64,000 nt of DNA, from positions 62,001-126,000 of the forward strand of contig NZ_JAUFQR010000001.1 of assembly GCF_030409875.1 (NCBI RefSeq), read 5' to 3'. A program made the position numbers and the translations under genes. Below are positions 8,530 to 19,793 of this stretch, in pieces. Each line of letters opens with the position of its first letter. Position 1 is the first letter of the stretch. The DNA comes from Chryseobacterium tructae (GTDB lineage Bacteria; Bacteroidota; Bacteroidia; Flavobacteriales; Weeksellaceae). Under the pieces are notes generated by a model, which was given only the letters and a program-made list of their open reading frames with translations, was not told the origin of the DNA and did no database searches.

Positions 8530-10136
8530 ATGGAATTTAGATATCAGGATCCGTATCCAATTCAGAAAGATGATACGGTGTACAAAAAGCTTACATCAGA
8601 TTATGTAAAGATGGAAAAACTGGGCGACAGAGAAATTTTAACAGTTGACCCAAAGGGATTGGAATTACTGGCTGAAGAGGCTATGGCAGATGTTCTTTCA
8701 TGTTGCGTTCTTCCCACCTGGAAAGCCTTAAGAGAATCATTGATGATCCTGAAGCTACCGATAATGACAGATTCGTTGCTTATAACTTGTTACAAAATGC
8801 TGCTGTAGCGGTTGAAGGAGCTCTTCCTTCTTGCCAGGATACAGGAACTGCAATCGTAATGGGTAAAAAAGGAGAAAACGTATACACAGGAGTGGATGAC
8901 GGGGAATTCTTAAGCCGTGGGATCTTCAATACCTATCAAAAAAGAAATTTAAGATATTCTCAGGTAGTCCCTTTGACTATGTTTGATGAGAAAAACTCAG
9001 GATCTAACCTTCCGGCACAGATTGATATCTATGCTAAAAAAGGCGATTACTATGAATTCTTATTCTTAACAAAAGGAGGAGGTTCAGCAAACAAAACATT
9101 CCTTTATCAAAAGACAAAATCATTACTGAACGAAAAATCTCTTGAAGAATTCGTCAAAGAAAGGATTTCAGATCTTGGTACAGCGGCTTGCCCGCCTTAT
9201 CACTTAGCATTAGTAATCGGAGGAACCTCGGCAGAAGCAAACCTTGCTGCCGTAAAAAAAGCTTCTGCAAAATATTATGACAATCTTCCAACAGAGGGAA
9301 ATGAAGCTGGTCAGGCATTCAGAGATCTTGAATGGGAAGCTAAAGTTCAGAAAATCTGCCAGGAAAGTGCGATTGGAGCACAGTTTGGTGGAAAATATCT
9401 TACTCACGATGTAAGAGTGATCAGACTTCCAAGACACGCCGCTTCTTGTCCGGTAGGAATGGGAGTATCTTGTTCAGCAGATAGAAATATCAAAGGAAAA
9501 ATTACAAGAGATGGTATCTTCCTTGAGCAATTGGAGCAGAATCCGAAAAGATTCTTACCTGCTACACCACCACATCTTGAAGAAGCTGTTGAGGTTAATT
9601 TGAATAAGCCAATGCCTGAAATCCTGGCTGAGCTTTCAAAATATCCGATCAAAACAAGGCTAAAACTAAACGGAACACTGATTGTAGCAAGAGATATTGC
9701 TCACGCTAAGATCAAAGAAATTATCGATAGTGGAAAACCAATGCCGGAATATTTCAAAAACCACCCAATTTATTATGCAGGGCCAGCAAAGACACCAGAA
9801 GGAATGGCTTCAGGAAGTTTCGGGCCTACTACTGCAGGAAGAATGGATGTTTATGTGGATGAATTCCAGAGTCATGGTGGAAGTATGATTATGCTTGCAA
9901 AAGGAAACAGAAGTAAAGATGTAGCCAATGCTTGTAATAAATATGGTGGTTTCTACCTTGGATCTATCGGTGGACCAGCTGCTATTCTTGCAAAGGATAA
10001 TATTGTATCCGTAGATGTAGTAGACTTCCCGGAATTAGGAATGGAAGCCGTAAGAAAGATCGAGGTGAAAGACTTCCCAGCATTCATCATTACTGATGAT
10101 AAAGGAAATGATTTCTTCGCAGATCTAGCTCATTAA
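8530..10136 (+). CDS. Class I fumarate hydratase (frameshift at ~8693)
   Basis: Iron-sulfur (4Fe-4S) dependent fumarase, unrelated in sequence to FumC. It shows '[20 protein letters not shown]' with a cluster-type Cys, '[13 protein letters not shown]', '[18 protein letters not shown]', '[18 protein letters not shown]', and a C-terminal beta-domain with '[20 protein letters not shown]'. A single T is missing at 8693-8694: the frame reads '[11 protein letters not shown]' instead of the expected '[19 protein letters not shown]'. With the base restored it is 535 aa, the usual length of the fused alpha/beta enzyme. The start at 8530 follows a -7 box. Probably the oxygen-sensitive counterpart of the adjacent FumC. 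Confidence 0.95.
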
Positions 10137-15753: not shown

Positions 15754-15786
15754 AAAGGGCAAATCAATAGATTTGCCCTTTTTTTC
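15754..15786 (+). terminator. Terminator after the GH13 gene
   Basis: The stem AAAGGGCAAATC / GATTTGCCCTT (15754-15765 with 15770-15780) is followed by a T tract. Confidence 0.9.
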
Positions 15787-15805: not shown

Positions 15806-15836
15806 TTTGCAGATTTGAAAAATTAGTCTACCTTTG
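15806..15836 (+). promoter_or_regulatory. Promoter for the riboswitch-controlled uptake operon
   Basis: TTTG (15806-15809) and TACCTTTG (15829-15836) are spaced by 19 bp, an excellent Bacteroidota sigma-A promoter. The predicted start, about 7 nt downstream, is right at the 5' end of the SAM-I riboswitch. Confidence 0.8.
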
Positions 15837-15843
15837 CACTAGA

Positions 15844-15945
15844 TTTATCAAGAAAGGTGGAGGGATTTGGCCCAATGAAACCTTAGCAACCTACATGATT
15901 CCAGAAATGTAAAGGTGCTAATTCCAACCCGAAAGGGGAGATAAG
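15844..15945 (+). promoter_or_regulatory. SAM-I (S-box) riboswitch
   Basis: The aptamer shows the S-box consensus almost base for base. It opens with TTTATCAAGA, which pairs with GATAAG at 15940-15945 to make P1. Next come GGTGGAGGGA, TGGCCCAATGAAACC and AGCAACC, then GGTGCTAATTCC at 15914-15925. S-box RNAs bind S-adenosylmethionine and turn off methionine or SAM supply genes. No strong terminator follows the aptamer, so control is probably at translation of the receptor gene, whose start is about 100 nt downstream. Confidence 0.96.
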
Positions 15946-16042
15946 TGAAGTCAATATTTCTTATATGAATTCCATTTTCTTGAAGTCTTGTATTGCTGCA
16001 GAATAACCTGCGGAAGAATATTATTAATTGGCAAGAACAAAG

Positions 16043-18487
16043 ATGAAAAAATTAAGCACAGCAGTATTACTGCTAGGGACAATTTTGGTTGCTGCCCAGG
16101 AGCAGGAAGAAAAAGGAAAACAAATCGAAGACATTATCATCGTCGGAAACCGTAACGTCAAAAGAACAAAACTGGAGACCCCAGTTCCTGTAGATGTAAT
16201 TAATATTGATAAAGTTCAGAGGTCATCTCCACAAATGACGGCTCAGGATCTCCTTAATTATGTGATTCCTTCATTTAATTCAGTAAGACAATCTGCTTCT
16301 GATGGGACAGAACATATTGATCCTGTAACATTACGAGGAATGGGACCAGATCAGGTGCTGGTATTGCTTAACGGGAAAAGAAGGCATACAACCTCACTGG
16401 TAAATTATCAGAATACCGTCGGGAATGGATCTGTAGGAACAGATTTAAGTACGATTCCTGTTATTGCCATTGAAAAGATTGAAGTGTTAAGAGATGGTGC
16501 AGCAGCTCAATATGGTTCAGATGCCATTGCCGGCGTCATTAATATTATTCTAAAAAAGAATGCAGGTGCTTCAGCAAGTTTAACCTATGGATTAAGTGGA
16601 AGAAATGATGGTGATACCTATCAGGCAGGAGTAAATTACGGAACTTCTTTAGGGAAAAGTGACGGATTTATCAATCTTTCATTGCAATTAAGCCACAGAG
16701 GAAAAACAACGAGAACCCAAAATCATGATCTTGATATTTTTGGAAATAACTTTGCTTATGAATTTGCAGATAATCCTGCTGTTGCAAGACAAAATGATGA
16801 TGATGAGCTTAGGAAAAGAGGATTGACAAGAGACGATTTTAATTTCCAGATCGGAGATGCTCAGATCAGACAGGGACAATTGTTTTTCAATTCAGAATAT
16901 CCCCTGAATGATAACTTTAAATTCTATTCCTTTGGAGGGTTCAGTATTAAGGAAGGGAAAGGATATGGCTTCAGAAGACTTCCCAATGAGGGTTTTAATA
17001 TTGTTAAAGAAATATATCCTAATGGTTTTCAGGCAATCCTGAATTCTCAGATTTATGATATCTCTTACGCTGTTGGGGCAAAATATAATGTCAATGACTG
17101 GCTGGTGGATCTGAGTAATACCTTTGGAAGCAATACCTTCAATTATAACGTAAGCAATACCAATAATGCTTCTTTGGGGATAAAGTCACCCACCCGTTTT
17201 TATGCTGGGGCACATAGTTTTTTGCAGAATACGGTGAATCTTGATGTTTCAAAAAAGATAAAGAACTTCAATGTTGCGTTCGGGGGAGAATTCAGATTTG
17301 AACAATATCAGATTAAAGCAGGAGATCAGGCATCTTATACCCAATATGATGTAAATGGAAATGTTGCCACAAAAGATTCTAAAGTGATCGGTGCAGGAGG
17401 TTCACAATCCTTTATTGGTTTTTCACCGGATAATGCTTTGAAAAAAGACAGGCACTCAACAGCTGTTTATGTTGATGTTTCTTATGATCTGGCTAAAAAA
17501 TTGAATATTGATGCTGCTGCCAGATTTGAAAACTATTCAGATTTTGGAAGTACCCTTAACGGAAAATTGGCAGTGAGATATGAGTTTGTGAAAAATTATG
17601 CAGTAAGAGCAGCCGTAGGAACAGGATTCAGGGCACCATCGCTTCAGCAGCAGTATTTTAATAACTCTTTTGCGGATATTTCTACTTCAGGGGAGGGAAT
17701 TGTAAGGAAAGGAATTTTTAATAATGACAGTCAGGCCGCACAGGTTCTCGGATTTGATAAATTAAAACAGGAAACATCCGTTAATGGAAGTGCTGGATTC
17801 ACCTTACAGCCTGCTAAAGGACTTTTTATTACTGTTGATGGATATATTATTAAAGTTAAAGACAGAATTGTTATTACCAGCAACATCACAGATGCCAGAC
17901 TATCTGATGTTTCAGTGGTTGGAGAAGGAAATGCAGTGCAGAGCGGTAGATTCTTTGCCAACGCCATTGATACTGAAACAAAAGGAGTAGATGTAGTAGT
18001 TTCCTATGATTGGAAGCTGGCTGGCGGAAACTTGAATGTCAATCTGGCTGGAAATTATACCGAAACTAAAATCACAAATTTTCACTTTCCGGAAAACCTG
18101 GGAACTCCTCAGAATGAATTCTTTGGCCCCGATCAGATCAATATTATTGAAACTTTATCACCTAAAACAAAAGCTTCATTGGGACTAACTTATGGAATAG
18201 GGAAATTCAATTTTCTCGTGAGAAATACCTATTTTGGCCAAGTGATAAGAGATGGGTATCCTTTTGGAGAAGTCCAGAAATTTTCACCAAAAGTAATAAC
18301 AGACATTAGTGTAGGGTATGATATTACAAAAAACATCAATTTTACGGTAGGAGCCAACAATGTATTGGATGTTTTCCCGGATCTTCAGATTTATAAGAAT
18401 TCATATTATGGAGTATTCAAGTATGCGCCGGTTCAGATGGGTACATTGGGAAGCTATTTCTTTGGAAGGCTTAATTTTAATTTTTAA
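16043..18487 (+). CDS. TonB-dependent outer membrane receptor under SAM-I control
   Basis: Outer-membrane active transporter of 814 aa that uses the TonB/ExbBD proton-driven system. A signal peptide ('LSTAVLLLGTILVAAQ') is followed by a plug domain with 'EDIIIVGNRNVKRTKLETPV' (TonB-box-like region then plug), 'DPVTLRGMGPDQVLVLLNGK' and 'IEKIEVLRDGAAAQYGSDAIAGVINI'. A 22-strand barrel with repeating aromatic-girdled strands follows, ending in a Phe ('FFGRLNFNF'). The ATG at 16043 is preferred over a TTG at 16028 because it begins a proper signal peptide. The S-box upstream and the amino acid permease 7 nt downstream suggest the substrate is methionine, a methionine-containing peptide or another sulfur compound. 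The substrate is inferred. Confidence 0.93.
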   Translation: MKKLSTAVLLLGTILVAAQEQEEKGKQIEDIIIVGNRNVKRTKLETPVPVDVINIDKVQRSSPQMTAQDLLNYVIPSFNSVRQSASDGTEHIDPVTLRGMGPDQVLVLLNGKRRHTTSLVNYQNTVGNGSVGTDLSTIPVIAIEKIEVLRDGAAAQYGSDAIAGVINIILKKNAGASASLTYGLSGRNDGDTYQAGVNYGTSLGKSDGFINLSLQLSHRGKTTRTQNHDLDIFGNNFAYEFADNPAVARQNDDDELRKRGLTRDDFNFQIGDAQIRQGQLFFNSEYPLNDNFKFYSFGGFSIKEGKGYGFRRLPNEGFNIVKEIYPNGFQAILNSQIYDISYAVGAKYNVNDWLVDLSNTFGSNTFNYNVSNTNNASLGIKSPTRFYAGAHSFLQNTVNLDVSKKIKNFNVAFGGEFRFEQYQIKAGDQASYTQYDVNGNVATKDSKVIGAGGSQSFIGFSPDNALKKDRHSTAVYVDVSYDLAKKLNIDAAARFENYSDFGSTLNGKLAVRYEFVKNYAVRAAVGTGFRAPSLQQQYFNNSFADISTSGEGIVRKGIFNNDSQAAQVLGFDKLKQETSVNGSAGFTLQPAKGLFITVDGYIIKVKDRIVITSNITDARLSDVSVVGEGNAVQSGRFFANAIDTETKGVDVVVSYDWKLAGGNLNVNLAGNYTETKITNFHFPENLGTPQNEFFGPDQINIIETLSPKTKASLGLTYGIGKFNFLVRNTYFGQVIRDGYPFGEVQKFSPKVITDISVGYDITKNINFTVGANNVLDVFPDLQIYKNSYYGVFKYAPVQMGTLGSYFFGRLNFNF

Positions 18488-18494
18488 TAAATAA

Positions 18495-19793
18495 ATGAGT
18501 ACTGCTTCACATCAGATTGGCTGGAAAACAGCCGCAGCCATTGTCGTTTCCAATATGATAGGAACAGGAATCTTCACAACCCTTGGATTCCAGCTATCCG
18601 ATATCACCAATACTTACAGTATTTTCCTTTTATGGATCATTGGTGGAATTCTTGCCTTGTTCGGAGCCTTTTGCTATGCCGAATTAGGTTCCCATTTTAA
18701 AGGAAATGGGGGGGATTTTATCTATCTTAAAGAAACATATCATCCTTTATTCGGATACCTTATAAGTTGGATTTCTCTGATTATCGGATTTTCCTCACCC
18801 GTGGCGCTAGCAGCTTTGGCTATGTCAAAATATCTTTCTGTATTTGATTATTCTTTTGGAAATGGCTTTGCAATTGCCGCTATATTTTTAGTCGCTATTA
18901 CCTTGTCATTCAGTTTAAAGACTTCAAGCCGGTTCCATAATTTTTTTACGTTCATCAAGATTGCCTTTATTATTGTTCTGGTGATTCTGGGAGTAGGATT
19001 ATCAAACTCACCACAAATTGGGAATAGCCTGAACTTCAGTGACAGCTGGCAGAATGAGATAATGCTTCCTGCCTTTGCTACCTCACTGGTTTTCGTTACC
19101 TATTCCTACACCGGATGGAATTCAGCCTCCTATATTGCCGGAGAAATAAAAGATGTTCAGAAGAGTCTTCCTAAATCACTGATTATAGGAACTGTTTTTG
19201 TGACCGTAAGTTATATTCTGGTCAACTACATTATGCTGAAACATGCTCCGGTAAGTCAATTGGCAGGGAAAGAGGATGTAATGGGTGAGGCAGCTGTGAA
19301 TATGCTTGGACTTTCCTTTGGGAAAATTGTAAATATTTTTATTGCATTACAACTGGTGGCAACAATCAGTGGATATTTATGGGTAGGATCAAGATTAACC
19401 CAGGCTTTTGCAAAAGAAACCCGTATCTGGAAACCTCTTTCCGTAGGGAACAAAAAAGGAATTCCGGTAAGAGCCATCTTTGCTCATGCAATTATTGCAA
19501 CGATCATTATTTTGACCGGAAGTTTCAAGGAAATTTTTGTTTACACTGCATTTATCCTTCAACTATTTGCCAGTTTAGCGATTTCAACAGTGTATTTCCT
19601 TAAAAAGAAAGATCGAAAAATATTTAAATCCAATGCCTTCTATATTTTCCCCACTGTTTTCTTATTATTCAGTGCTTATATTCTGTACTTTACCTTTATT
19701 CATAACCCTAAAGAAAGTTTAATCGGATTAGGAATTATTGCTGTAGGGCTCATTTTATATTGGATTGACAGAAGCCTTTCGAAAGAAGGTTAA
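18495..19793 (+). CDS. APC family amino acid permease
   Basis: Inner-membrane amino acid transporter of 432 aa with about 12 membrane segments. The APC superfamily signature is at the N-terminus: 'AAAIVVSNMIGTGIFTTLGF' with the GTGIF helix-break motif, and 'GGILALFGAFCYAELGSHF' follows. It begins 7 nt after the receptor stop, so the two are co-transcribed behind the SAM-I riboswitch. Receptor plus permease would carry a substrate across both membranes. Methionine is the simplest guess, from the riboswitch; the sequence alone does not fix specificity. Confidence 0.92.
   Translation: MSTASHQIGWKTAAAIVVSNMIGTGIFTTLGFQLSDITNTYSIFLLWIIGGILALFGAFCYAELGSHFKGNGGDFIYLKETYHPLFGYLISWISLIIGFSSPVALAALAMSKYLSVFDYSFGNGFAIAAIFLVAITLSFSLKTSSRFHNFFTFIKIAFIIVLVILGVGLSNSPQIGNSLNFSDSWQNEIMLPAFATSLVFVTYSYTGWNSASYIAGEIKDVQKSLPKSLIIGTVFVTVSYILVNYIMLKHAPVSQLAGKEDVMGEAAVNMLGLSFGKIVNIFIALQLVATISGYLWVGSRLTQAFAKETRIWKPLSVGNKKGIPVRAIFAHAIIATIIILTGSFKEIFVYTAFILQLFASLAISTVYFLKKKDRKIFKSNAFYIFPTVFLLFSAYILYFTFIHNPKESLIGLGIIAVGLILYWIDRSLSKEG

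Follow-up and report, generated by a model that had tools for sequence, protein, structure and literature searches.

The window analysed here is a stretch of 64,000 nucleotides from Chryseobacterium tructae (Weeksellaceae; RefSeq assembly GCF_030409875.1, contig NZ_JAUFQR010000001.1, positions 62,001 to 126,000 of the forward strand). Between window positions 15,806 and 19,793 it holds a SAM-I riboswitch, an RNA that senses S-adenosylmethionine (SAM), followed by genes for a TonB-dependent outer-membrane receptor and an amino acid permease. This operon and the compound it may take up are the subject of the analysis. The features of the locus are as follows:

15806-15836, plus strand: Bacteroidetes-type promoter, with TTTG at 15806-15809 (TTG at 15807-15809), a 19-nt spacer and TACCTTTG at 15829-15836
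15842-15947, plus strand: SAM-I (S-box) riboswitch aptamer, from a covariance match to RF00162
15848-15855, plus strand: TCAAGAAA, segment of the aptamer 5' strand and partner of the downstream element, from sequence and folding
15976-15983, plus strand: TTTCTTGA, proposed expression-platform element, from conservation, folding and shuffles
16032-16037, plus strand: CAAGAA immediately 5' of the start codon, which may be a second partner of the element, from complementarity and folding of the tail
16043-18487, plus strand: TonB-dependent outer-membrane receptor of 814 aa, plug and beta barrel (PF07715, PF00593)
18495-19793, plus strand: APC-superfamily permease of LAT type, 432 aa, the proposed inner-membrane step (PF13520)

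The aptamer matched RF00162 over the full length of the model (positions 1-108) with 81.5 bits against a gathering score of 44.4 (E 1.2e-17), and among the Rfam matches in the window it is the only one to pass its cut-off. Just upstream, TTG, the 19-nt spacer and TACCTTTG fit the Bacteroidetes promoter consensus, and the pattern TTG-N17-23-TAnnTTTG was found immediately 5' of 40 of the 45 homologous aptamers tested, where about 0.012 matches would be expected per stretch of that length. We infer that transcription starts at ~15842, the first base of the aptamer. No terminator-like hairpin with a T-run was found on the plus strand between the aptamer and the start codon, and terminator-based control was rejected on this ground. 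The first-pass annotation of the window had placed the aptamer at 15844-15945, behind an ideal promoter, without a terminator after it and directly before a receptor and a permease, and this layout was borne out in each of its parts. The gene upstream, amylase-like by eye, is followed by a hairpin terminator (15754-15781), and the receptor-permease unit therefore appears to be separate from it.

The reading frame of the receptor (16028-18487) begins with TTG, the alternative ATG at 16043 giving the 814-aa protein. Pfam searches identified it as a TonB-dependent receptor (PF07715, Plug, 71 bits; PF00593, TonB barrel, 131 bits), and the nearest named receptors, from Chryseobacterium jejuense, C. 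pennae, C. sp. c4a and C. contaminans, are 93-95% identical. Its AlphaFold model (pLDDT 85.4) is nearest to the solved folds of PfeA, PirA, Cir, BtuB and FepA at 15-17% identity, which gives nothing specific about a substrate, and none of the substrate-specific NCBIfam cut-offs was reached; fold and family models were both rejected as guides to the ligand. A methionine-rich peptide had been among the substrates first proposed. Uptake of peptides in the manner of RagAB is less likely, because the receptor is not SusC-like (TIGR04057, 22.3 bits against a cut-off of 46.2) and the next gene encodes the permease, with no SusD partner adjacent. Across 37 aligned rows of the receptor family, thirteen positions are conserved in at least 94% and absent from seven paralogues, including E90, Q123 and N128 of the plug; they hint at a single ligand without proving one. 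One 45% identical paralogue in the same genome (L147, G000:C3:846985-849417) lies away from all three SAM-I sites of the genome and has no permease adjoining.

The permease gene begins 7 nt after the stop codon of the receptor. PF13520 (AA_permease_2) matched with 173 bits against a cut-off of 27, identifying the product as an APC amino acid permease. By sequence the closest solved proteins are b0,+AT, xCT and LAT2 (phmmer E 1e-40 to b0,+AT), and Foldseek comparison of the AlphaFold model (pLDDT 87.9) placed y+LAT2, BasC, LAT1, Asc-1 and b0,+AT among the ten best solved structures, at TM-scores of 0.82-0.87 and ~23-28% identity. The permease thus resembles the LAT/b0,+AT/BasC-type APC transporters and differs from them in adjoining a TonB receptor and in reaching no specific NCBIfam cut-off, including those of the L-type model (173 of 702 bits) and the L-methionine/branched-chain carrier (NF008245, 67.1 of 284 bits). 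LAT carriers take large neutral amino acids.

The arrangement is conserved. In a family sample of 148 genomes, all 27 receptors of at least 60% identity, the window's own included, have SAM-I directly upstream, as judged by comparing coordinates by eye, and the permease as the next gene (55-97% identity, own apart). Since the order of SAM-I, receptor and permease is kept in every one of these receptors, it is not due to chance. A second set comprised the best-scoring 80 loci of a contig scan; judged by their names, 45 of them belong to Weeksellaceae and 35 lie outside. The 45 come from Chryseobacterium, Apibacter, Faecalibacter, Empedobacter, Algoriella, Chishuiella and one metagenome-assembled genome (MAG) named to family only; the aptamer, detected with a covariance model built here, was upstream in all 45 (truncated at the end of the contig in L093), and the permease was downstream of the receptor in 45/45. 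In addition, a Saprospiraceae MAG (L122) has SAM-I, receptor and permease in the same order, its permease being cut by the contig end. This survey, which the first-pass annotation had suggested, confirms that the arrangement is genuine and conserved, and on comparative grounds it supports control by SAM-I and a role in uptake.

The other SAM-I sites of the family indicate what such an operon would serve. From the SAM-I matches listed in a scan of the family genomes, which used stricter filters, 60 further sites were taken, hand-picked outside the 27 receptor sites and including the third site of the window's genome. The first gene was metX-like at 18 of them, metY/B-like at 17, a homoserine dehydrogenase at 11 and part of metH (homocysteine S-methyltransferase) at eight; a TonB receptor of ~940 aa stood first at five and a SusC at one. 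The names metX, hom and metY/B rest on BLAST clustering and the Pfam domains of a single representative per group (alpha/beta hydrolase, homoserine dehydrogenase and Cys/Met PLP enzyme, respectively). As a methionine- or homoserine-pathway gene thus comes first at 54/60 of the sites and an outer-membrane receptor at the remaining six, a methionine- or SAM-related role of the receptor in the window is very likely from its regulatory context. Nine Chryseobacterium genomes of the sample, among them the window's, contain the operon, and each of them has three SAM-I sites: one before a metX-like operon (9/9), one before the receptor-permease operon and one before a SusC-like receptor, whose start was seen by translation in eight and separately in the window's genome (9/9).

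Two further outer-membrane systems were thus noted behind SAM-I. One is the third site of the window's genome, where a SusC-like receptor (Plug) is accompanied by a SusD-family gene; the SusD neighbour was looked at in this genome only. The other occurs in another Weeksellaceae genus (L210, L212, L215, L216 and L217), where the ~940-aa TonB receptor is of a different kind and no second long plus-strand frame follows within ~6 kb. The site in the window's genome is:

L005 7487-7583 and downstream (G000:C3:191486), minus strand: SAM-I of the SusC/SusD system, from a covariance match and Pfam

The leaders of the receptor genes carry an element that was not seen in the other SAM-I leaders sampled from the family. 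In the window, TTTCTTGA is the exact complement of TCAAGAAA in the aptamer. Its core, TTCTTGA, was found in 44/45 Weeksellaceae receptor leaders and in 0/60 other SAM-I leaders searched with the same pattern, the end of the aptamer being set by position in the 12 control leaders where it was not located. The one exception, L104, lacks the final A, so that TTCTTG occurs in 45/45 receptor leaders as against 3/60 of the others. With L093 and L122 counted the figure is 44/46; the element is not present in L122, outside Weeksellaceae. In an analysis of exact complements that covered 37 of 46 rows, the nine rows that gave no start being left out, the complementarity of the element to the aptamer strand beat shuffles of the single leader in 22/37 (p 0.05 or less), whereas complementarity to the start region was mostly not significant; for CAAGAA in the window, taken alone, p was 0.435.

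Ligand-free folding gave pairing probabilities of 0.76-0.99 between the element and the aptamer, with P1 open, in nine of ten leaders (0.06 in L104). In the tail folded alone, a stand-in for the SAM-bound state, the element paired with the start region at 0.37-0.85. For the window leader the value was 0.60, which 5/100 shuffles matched; across leaders, shuffled tails matched the pairing with the start region in 5 to 49 of 100 and opened P1 equally far in 2 to 34 of 60. Because shuffles often do as well, folding energies are weak evidence here and were rejected as proof of a switch, and it is conservation that carries the argument. The presence of TTCTTGA in receptor leaders and in none of the 60 others is consistent with the translational control first suggested by the missing terminator, and the receptor leader likely carries a translational off-switch.

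Outside Weeksellaceae the same kind of receptor has a second type of partner. Within one gene of the receptor, 25 of the 35 loci have a SAM hydroxide adenosyltransferase (HAT), 12 have a permease and two have both; none has neither. HATs form a family of enzymes that split SAM into methionine and adenosine. In a Pfam scan of five of the 25, both domains lay well above cut-off in every case; the other 20 were assigned by BLAST clustering with these. Among solved structures they come closest to 2zbu, SalL-type chlorinases and PH0463, and the nearest NCBIfam models are (R)-SAM hydrolases, the cut-offs of which they do not reach (140 of 350 bits). According to PMC10491745, the DUF62 hydrolases are recognised by a His-Arg-Asp triad that halogenases do not have. 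All 12 aligned rows of the exported type have the Asp, Arg and His assigned to this triad together with a signal-like N-terminus, signal peptides being judged by eye only; three of three cytosolic paralogues have neither the signal-like N-terminus nor the His, and two of the three also miss the Arg. The linked HAT thus resembles the known HAT/DUF62 enzymes (2zbu, PH0463, StDUF62) in its domains and catalytic columns, and differs in its N-terminus, in scoring below the (R)-SAM hydrolase cut-offs and in being a gene of the relatives, not of the window. Judging from these N-termini, it probably works outside the cytoplasm. The exported-type HAT at L252 (1501-2391) has an N-terminus that reads like a lipoprotein signal by eye, and this enzyme may be membrane-anchored. 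At L146 (5550-6374, minus strand) lies a HAT-family protein with no signal-like N-terminus and no catalytic His column.

HAT and receptor are linked in three different arrangements. The HAT gene precedes the receptor gene in Chitinophaga and Pedobacter, the two diverge in Flavobacterium, and the order is receptor-APC-HAT in Bacteroidales. Pairs of HAT and receptor occur in isolates of the first three genera. Of the HAT-only genomes, 21/23 had no related permease at E 1e-60, and the other two have matches of 37-40% identity. A tree of 52 receptors was made from the window, 13 of the 45 loci in Weeksellaceae, all but one of the 35 outside (L144, whose receptor is split into short frames, was left out, leaving 34) and four paralogues as outgroup. 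In this tree, built by a quick method and carrying a long-branch warning, HAT-linked receptors of Chitinophaga, Pedobacter and Microscillaceae formed a basal group, and a second HAT-linked group, from Flavobacterium, was nested among the APC-linked ones. An exchange of partners is seen in Flavobacterium, where some species have the permease and others the HAT at one chromosomal place: L117 and L121 (APC) and L119 and L128 (HAT) have neighbour clusters in common on both sides, and their receptors are 76-78% identical; in L119 one other frame lies between HAT and receptor. Two MAGs (L109 and L110) have the order receptor-APC-HAT, and in the Bacteroidales locus L110 the three genes are flanked by ahcY (643 bits, cut-off 498) on one side and on the other by metH (1688 bits, cut-off 1497) under SAM-I control.

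The adjoining metH might suggest a receptor for cobalamin, which MetH needs as cofactor, or for a siderophore, with only an indirect tie to methionine; enterobactin receptors, Cir and BtuB are indeed the nearest solved folds. That fold is common to TonB receptors in general, the receptor scores far below the BtuB (73.8 of 836 bits) and FepA (112.2 of 493 bits) family cut-offs, and an amino acid permease and a SAM hydrolase are ill-suited to a metal or B12 route. We therefore consider cobalamin or a siderophore very improbable.

As one kind of receptor pairs either with a SAM hydrolase or with a permease, the simplest reading is that its ligand is SAM. We tentatively favour this reading, at somewhat short of an even chance: the receptor would be a TonB-dependent SAM importer in a SAM-repressed scavenging operon. 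More broadly, the receptor-permease pair probably scavenges SAM, or methionine, from the surroundings, as its control and its partners suggest. In the proposed mechanism, promoter, aptamer, receptor and permease would form one SAM-repressed unit with transcription beginning at the aptamer. When cellular SAM is low, TTTCTTGA would pair with the aptamer 5' strand, leaving P1 open and the start region of the receptor free. At high SAM P1 would form, and the freed element would pair with the start region and stop translation. The receptor would carry SAM, a charged molecule of ~400 Da, through the outer membrane, powered by TonB. An exported HAT would then cleave it to methionine and adenosine in Flavobacterium, Chitinophaga and Pedobacter, while in Weeksellaceae the LAT-like APC permease would move either intact SAM or methionine formed from it through the inner membrane. 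Slightly more doubtful is a wider reading: receptors of one family would be teamed either with an exported SAM hydrolase or with an APC permease for intact SAM, and in Weeksellaceae their own substrate would switch them off via SAM-I and a dedicated translational platform.

Import of methionine had been the original proposal for the operon. Comparison upholds its broader part, methionine- or SAM-related uptake under SAM-I control; methionine, or a methionine-rich peptide, as the specific substrate is not established, and the HAT link points to SAM. On the methionine account, free methionine or a small methionine compound would enter through receptor and permease, with SAM-I providing end-product feedback. 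The methionine- and homoserine-pathway genes behind most other SAM-I sites of the family, the LAT type of the permease with its preference for large neutral amino acids, and the lack of an exported-type HAT among the 148 Weeksellaceae genomes all agree with this. It is hard to see on this account why 76-78% identical receptors should pair with a permease or with a SAM-splitting enzyme at one locus, and free methionine is small enough to pass through porins. Free methionine is thus the rather less probable ligand. Less probable still is S-methylmethionine, methionine sulfoxide, methylthioadenosine or a natural product containing an adenosyl or sulfonium group. SAM-I control and the HAT link would allow any methionine-yielding or SAM-like compound; as far as S-methylmethionine is concerned, the permease stays far below the cut-off of the S-methylmethionine permease (NF008484, 39.9 of 716 bits). 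A dedicated degradation gene may lie among the neighbouring genes, only some of which were identified.

Several observations weigh against SAM. An exported-type HAT was found in 0/148 family genomes, the window's own included; 146 of them have one weak HAT match each, of at most 35% identity, and in the window's genome the sole member of the HAT family has neither a signal-like N-terminus nor the His, though it keeps the Arg. Because the signal-bearing enzyme is missing throughout this sample, the permease of Weeksellaceae would have to carry SAM or methionine itself, and its nearest solved relatives carry amino acids, not SAM. The window's receptor shares 57-58% identity with its HAT-linked counterparts in Flavobacterium, and 53-54% with the corresponding receptors in Chitinophaga and Pedobacter. 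With no more than 57-58% identity to the former, and 45% to the paralogue without SAM-I in its own genome, a shift of ligand is possible. SAM-I preceded the receptor in 0/23 HAT-only loci, and was found elsewhere in the genome in all 14 HAT-only genomes searched. Both SAM-I and HAT are missing at nine of the 12 APC-linked loci outside Weeksellaceae (L112, L114, L117, L120, L121, L125, L129, L130 and L140), two of which (L112 and L140) are on contigs that end soon after the permease; among the genomes of the nine only that of L112 holds an exported-type HAT, on another contig. The three-gene receptor-APC-HAT loci are known from MAGs. Finally, metK was kept in 147/148 family genomes, the exception being 79% complete, and dependence on imported SAM through loss of metK was therefore rejected.

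Among 296 Bacteroidota genomes drawn evenly, nine exported-type HATs (at least 60% identity) were found, with the receptor within 1.5 kb in two of the nine, which also speaks against SAM as ligand. The seven that stand apart from the receptor would fit an enzyme that clears damaged (R,S)-SAM, its link to the receptor being incidental; PMC12120602 describes a DUF62 enzyme that selectively hydrolyses (R,S)-SAM, and the physiological role of DUF62 is debated there. Given that the link between HAT and receptor recurs in three gene orders, we regard this explanation as very unlikely.

Some genes of the window's genome appear broken. In the window, a fumarase-like gene (by eye, 8530-10136) lies in two overlapping frames; elsewhere in the genome, metK was matched in two pieces (G000:C1:189939-190345) and the SusC lies in separate frames (L005 5069-7409). 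These splits are likely sequencing errors in the assembly.

S-boxes are known to control met genes. The aptamer of the window, complete and above its cut-off, belongs with them, as do most other sites of the family, and it differs in what it controls, an outer-membrane receptor and a permease, and in the TTCTTGA of its leader. TonB receptors under vitamin riboswitches also exist, such as BtuB, and the operon would work alike, with a metabolite-sensing RNA before a TonB receptor; here SAM is sensed, the receptor scores below the BtuB cut-off, and an amino acid permease follows. In bacteria, SAM is usually regarded as a product of the cell itself, and uptake from outside has been described in intracellular parasites and yeast. 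In the open-licence literature searched, we found no outer-membrane receptor for SAM or methionine. The accessible parts of PMC3766115, PMC4239095, PMC3228920, PMC5343134, PMC12120602, PMC10491745, PMC7160235 and PMC545781 describe no TonB receptor for either compound; the word TonB is absent from the main text of two regulon surveys (PMC3766115, PMC4239095). PMC5343134 predicts TonB receptors for histidine and hydroxyproline, so amino acids are already among the proposed substrates of such receptors. The new part of the finding is the probable ligand. If SAM is indeed what the receptor carries, free-living Bacteroidota would scavenge external SAM, at least some exported DUF62 enzymes would gain a testable physiological role, and SAM would add a substrate class to TonB-dependent transport.

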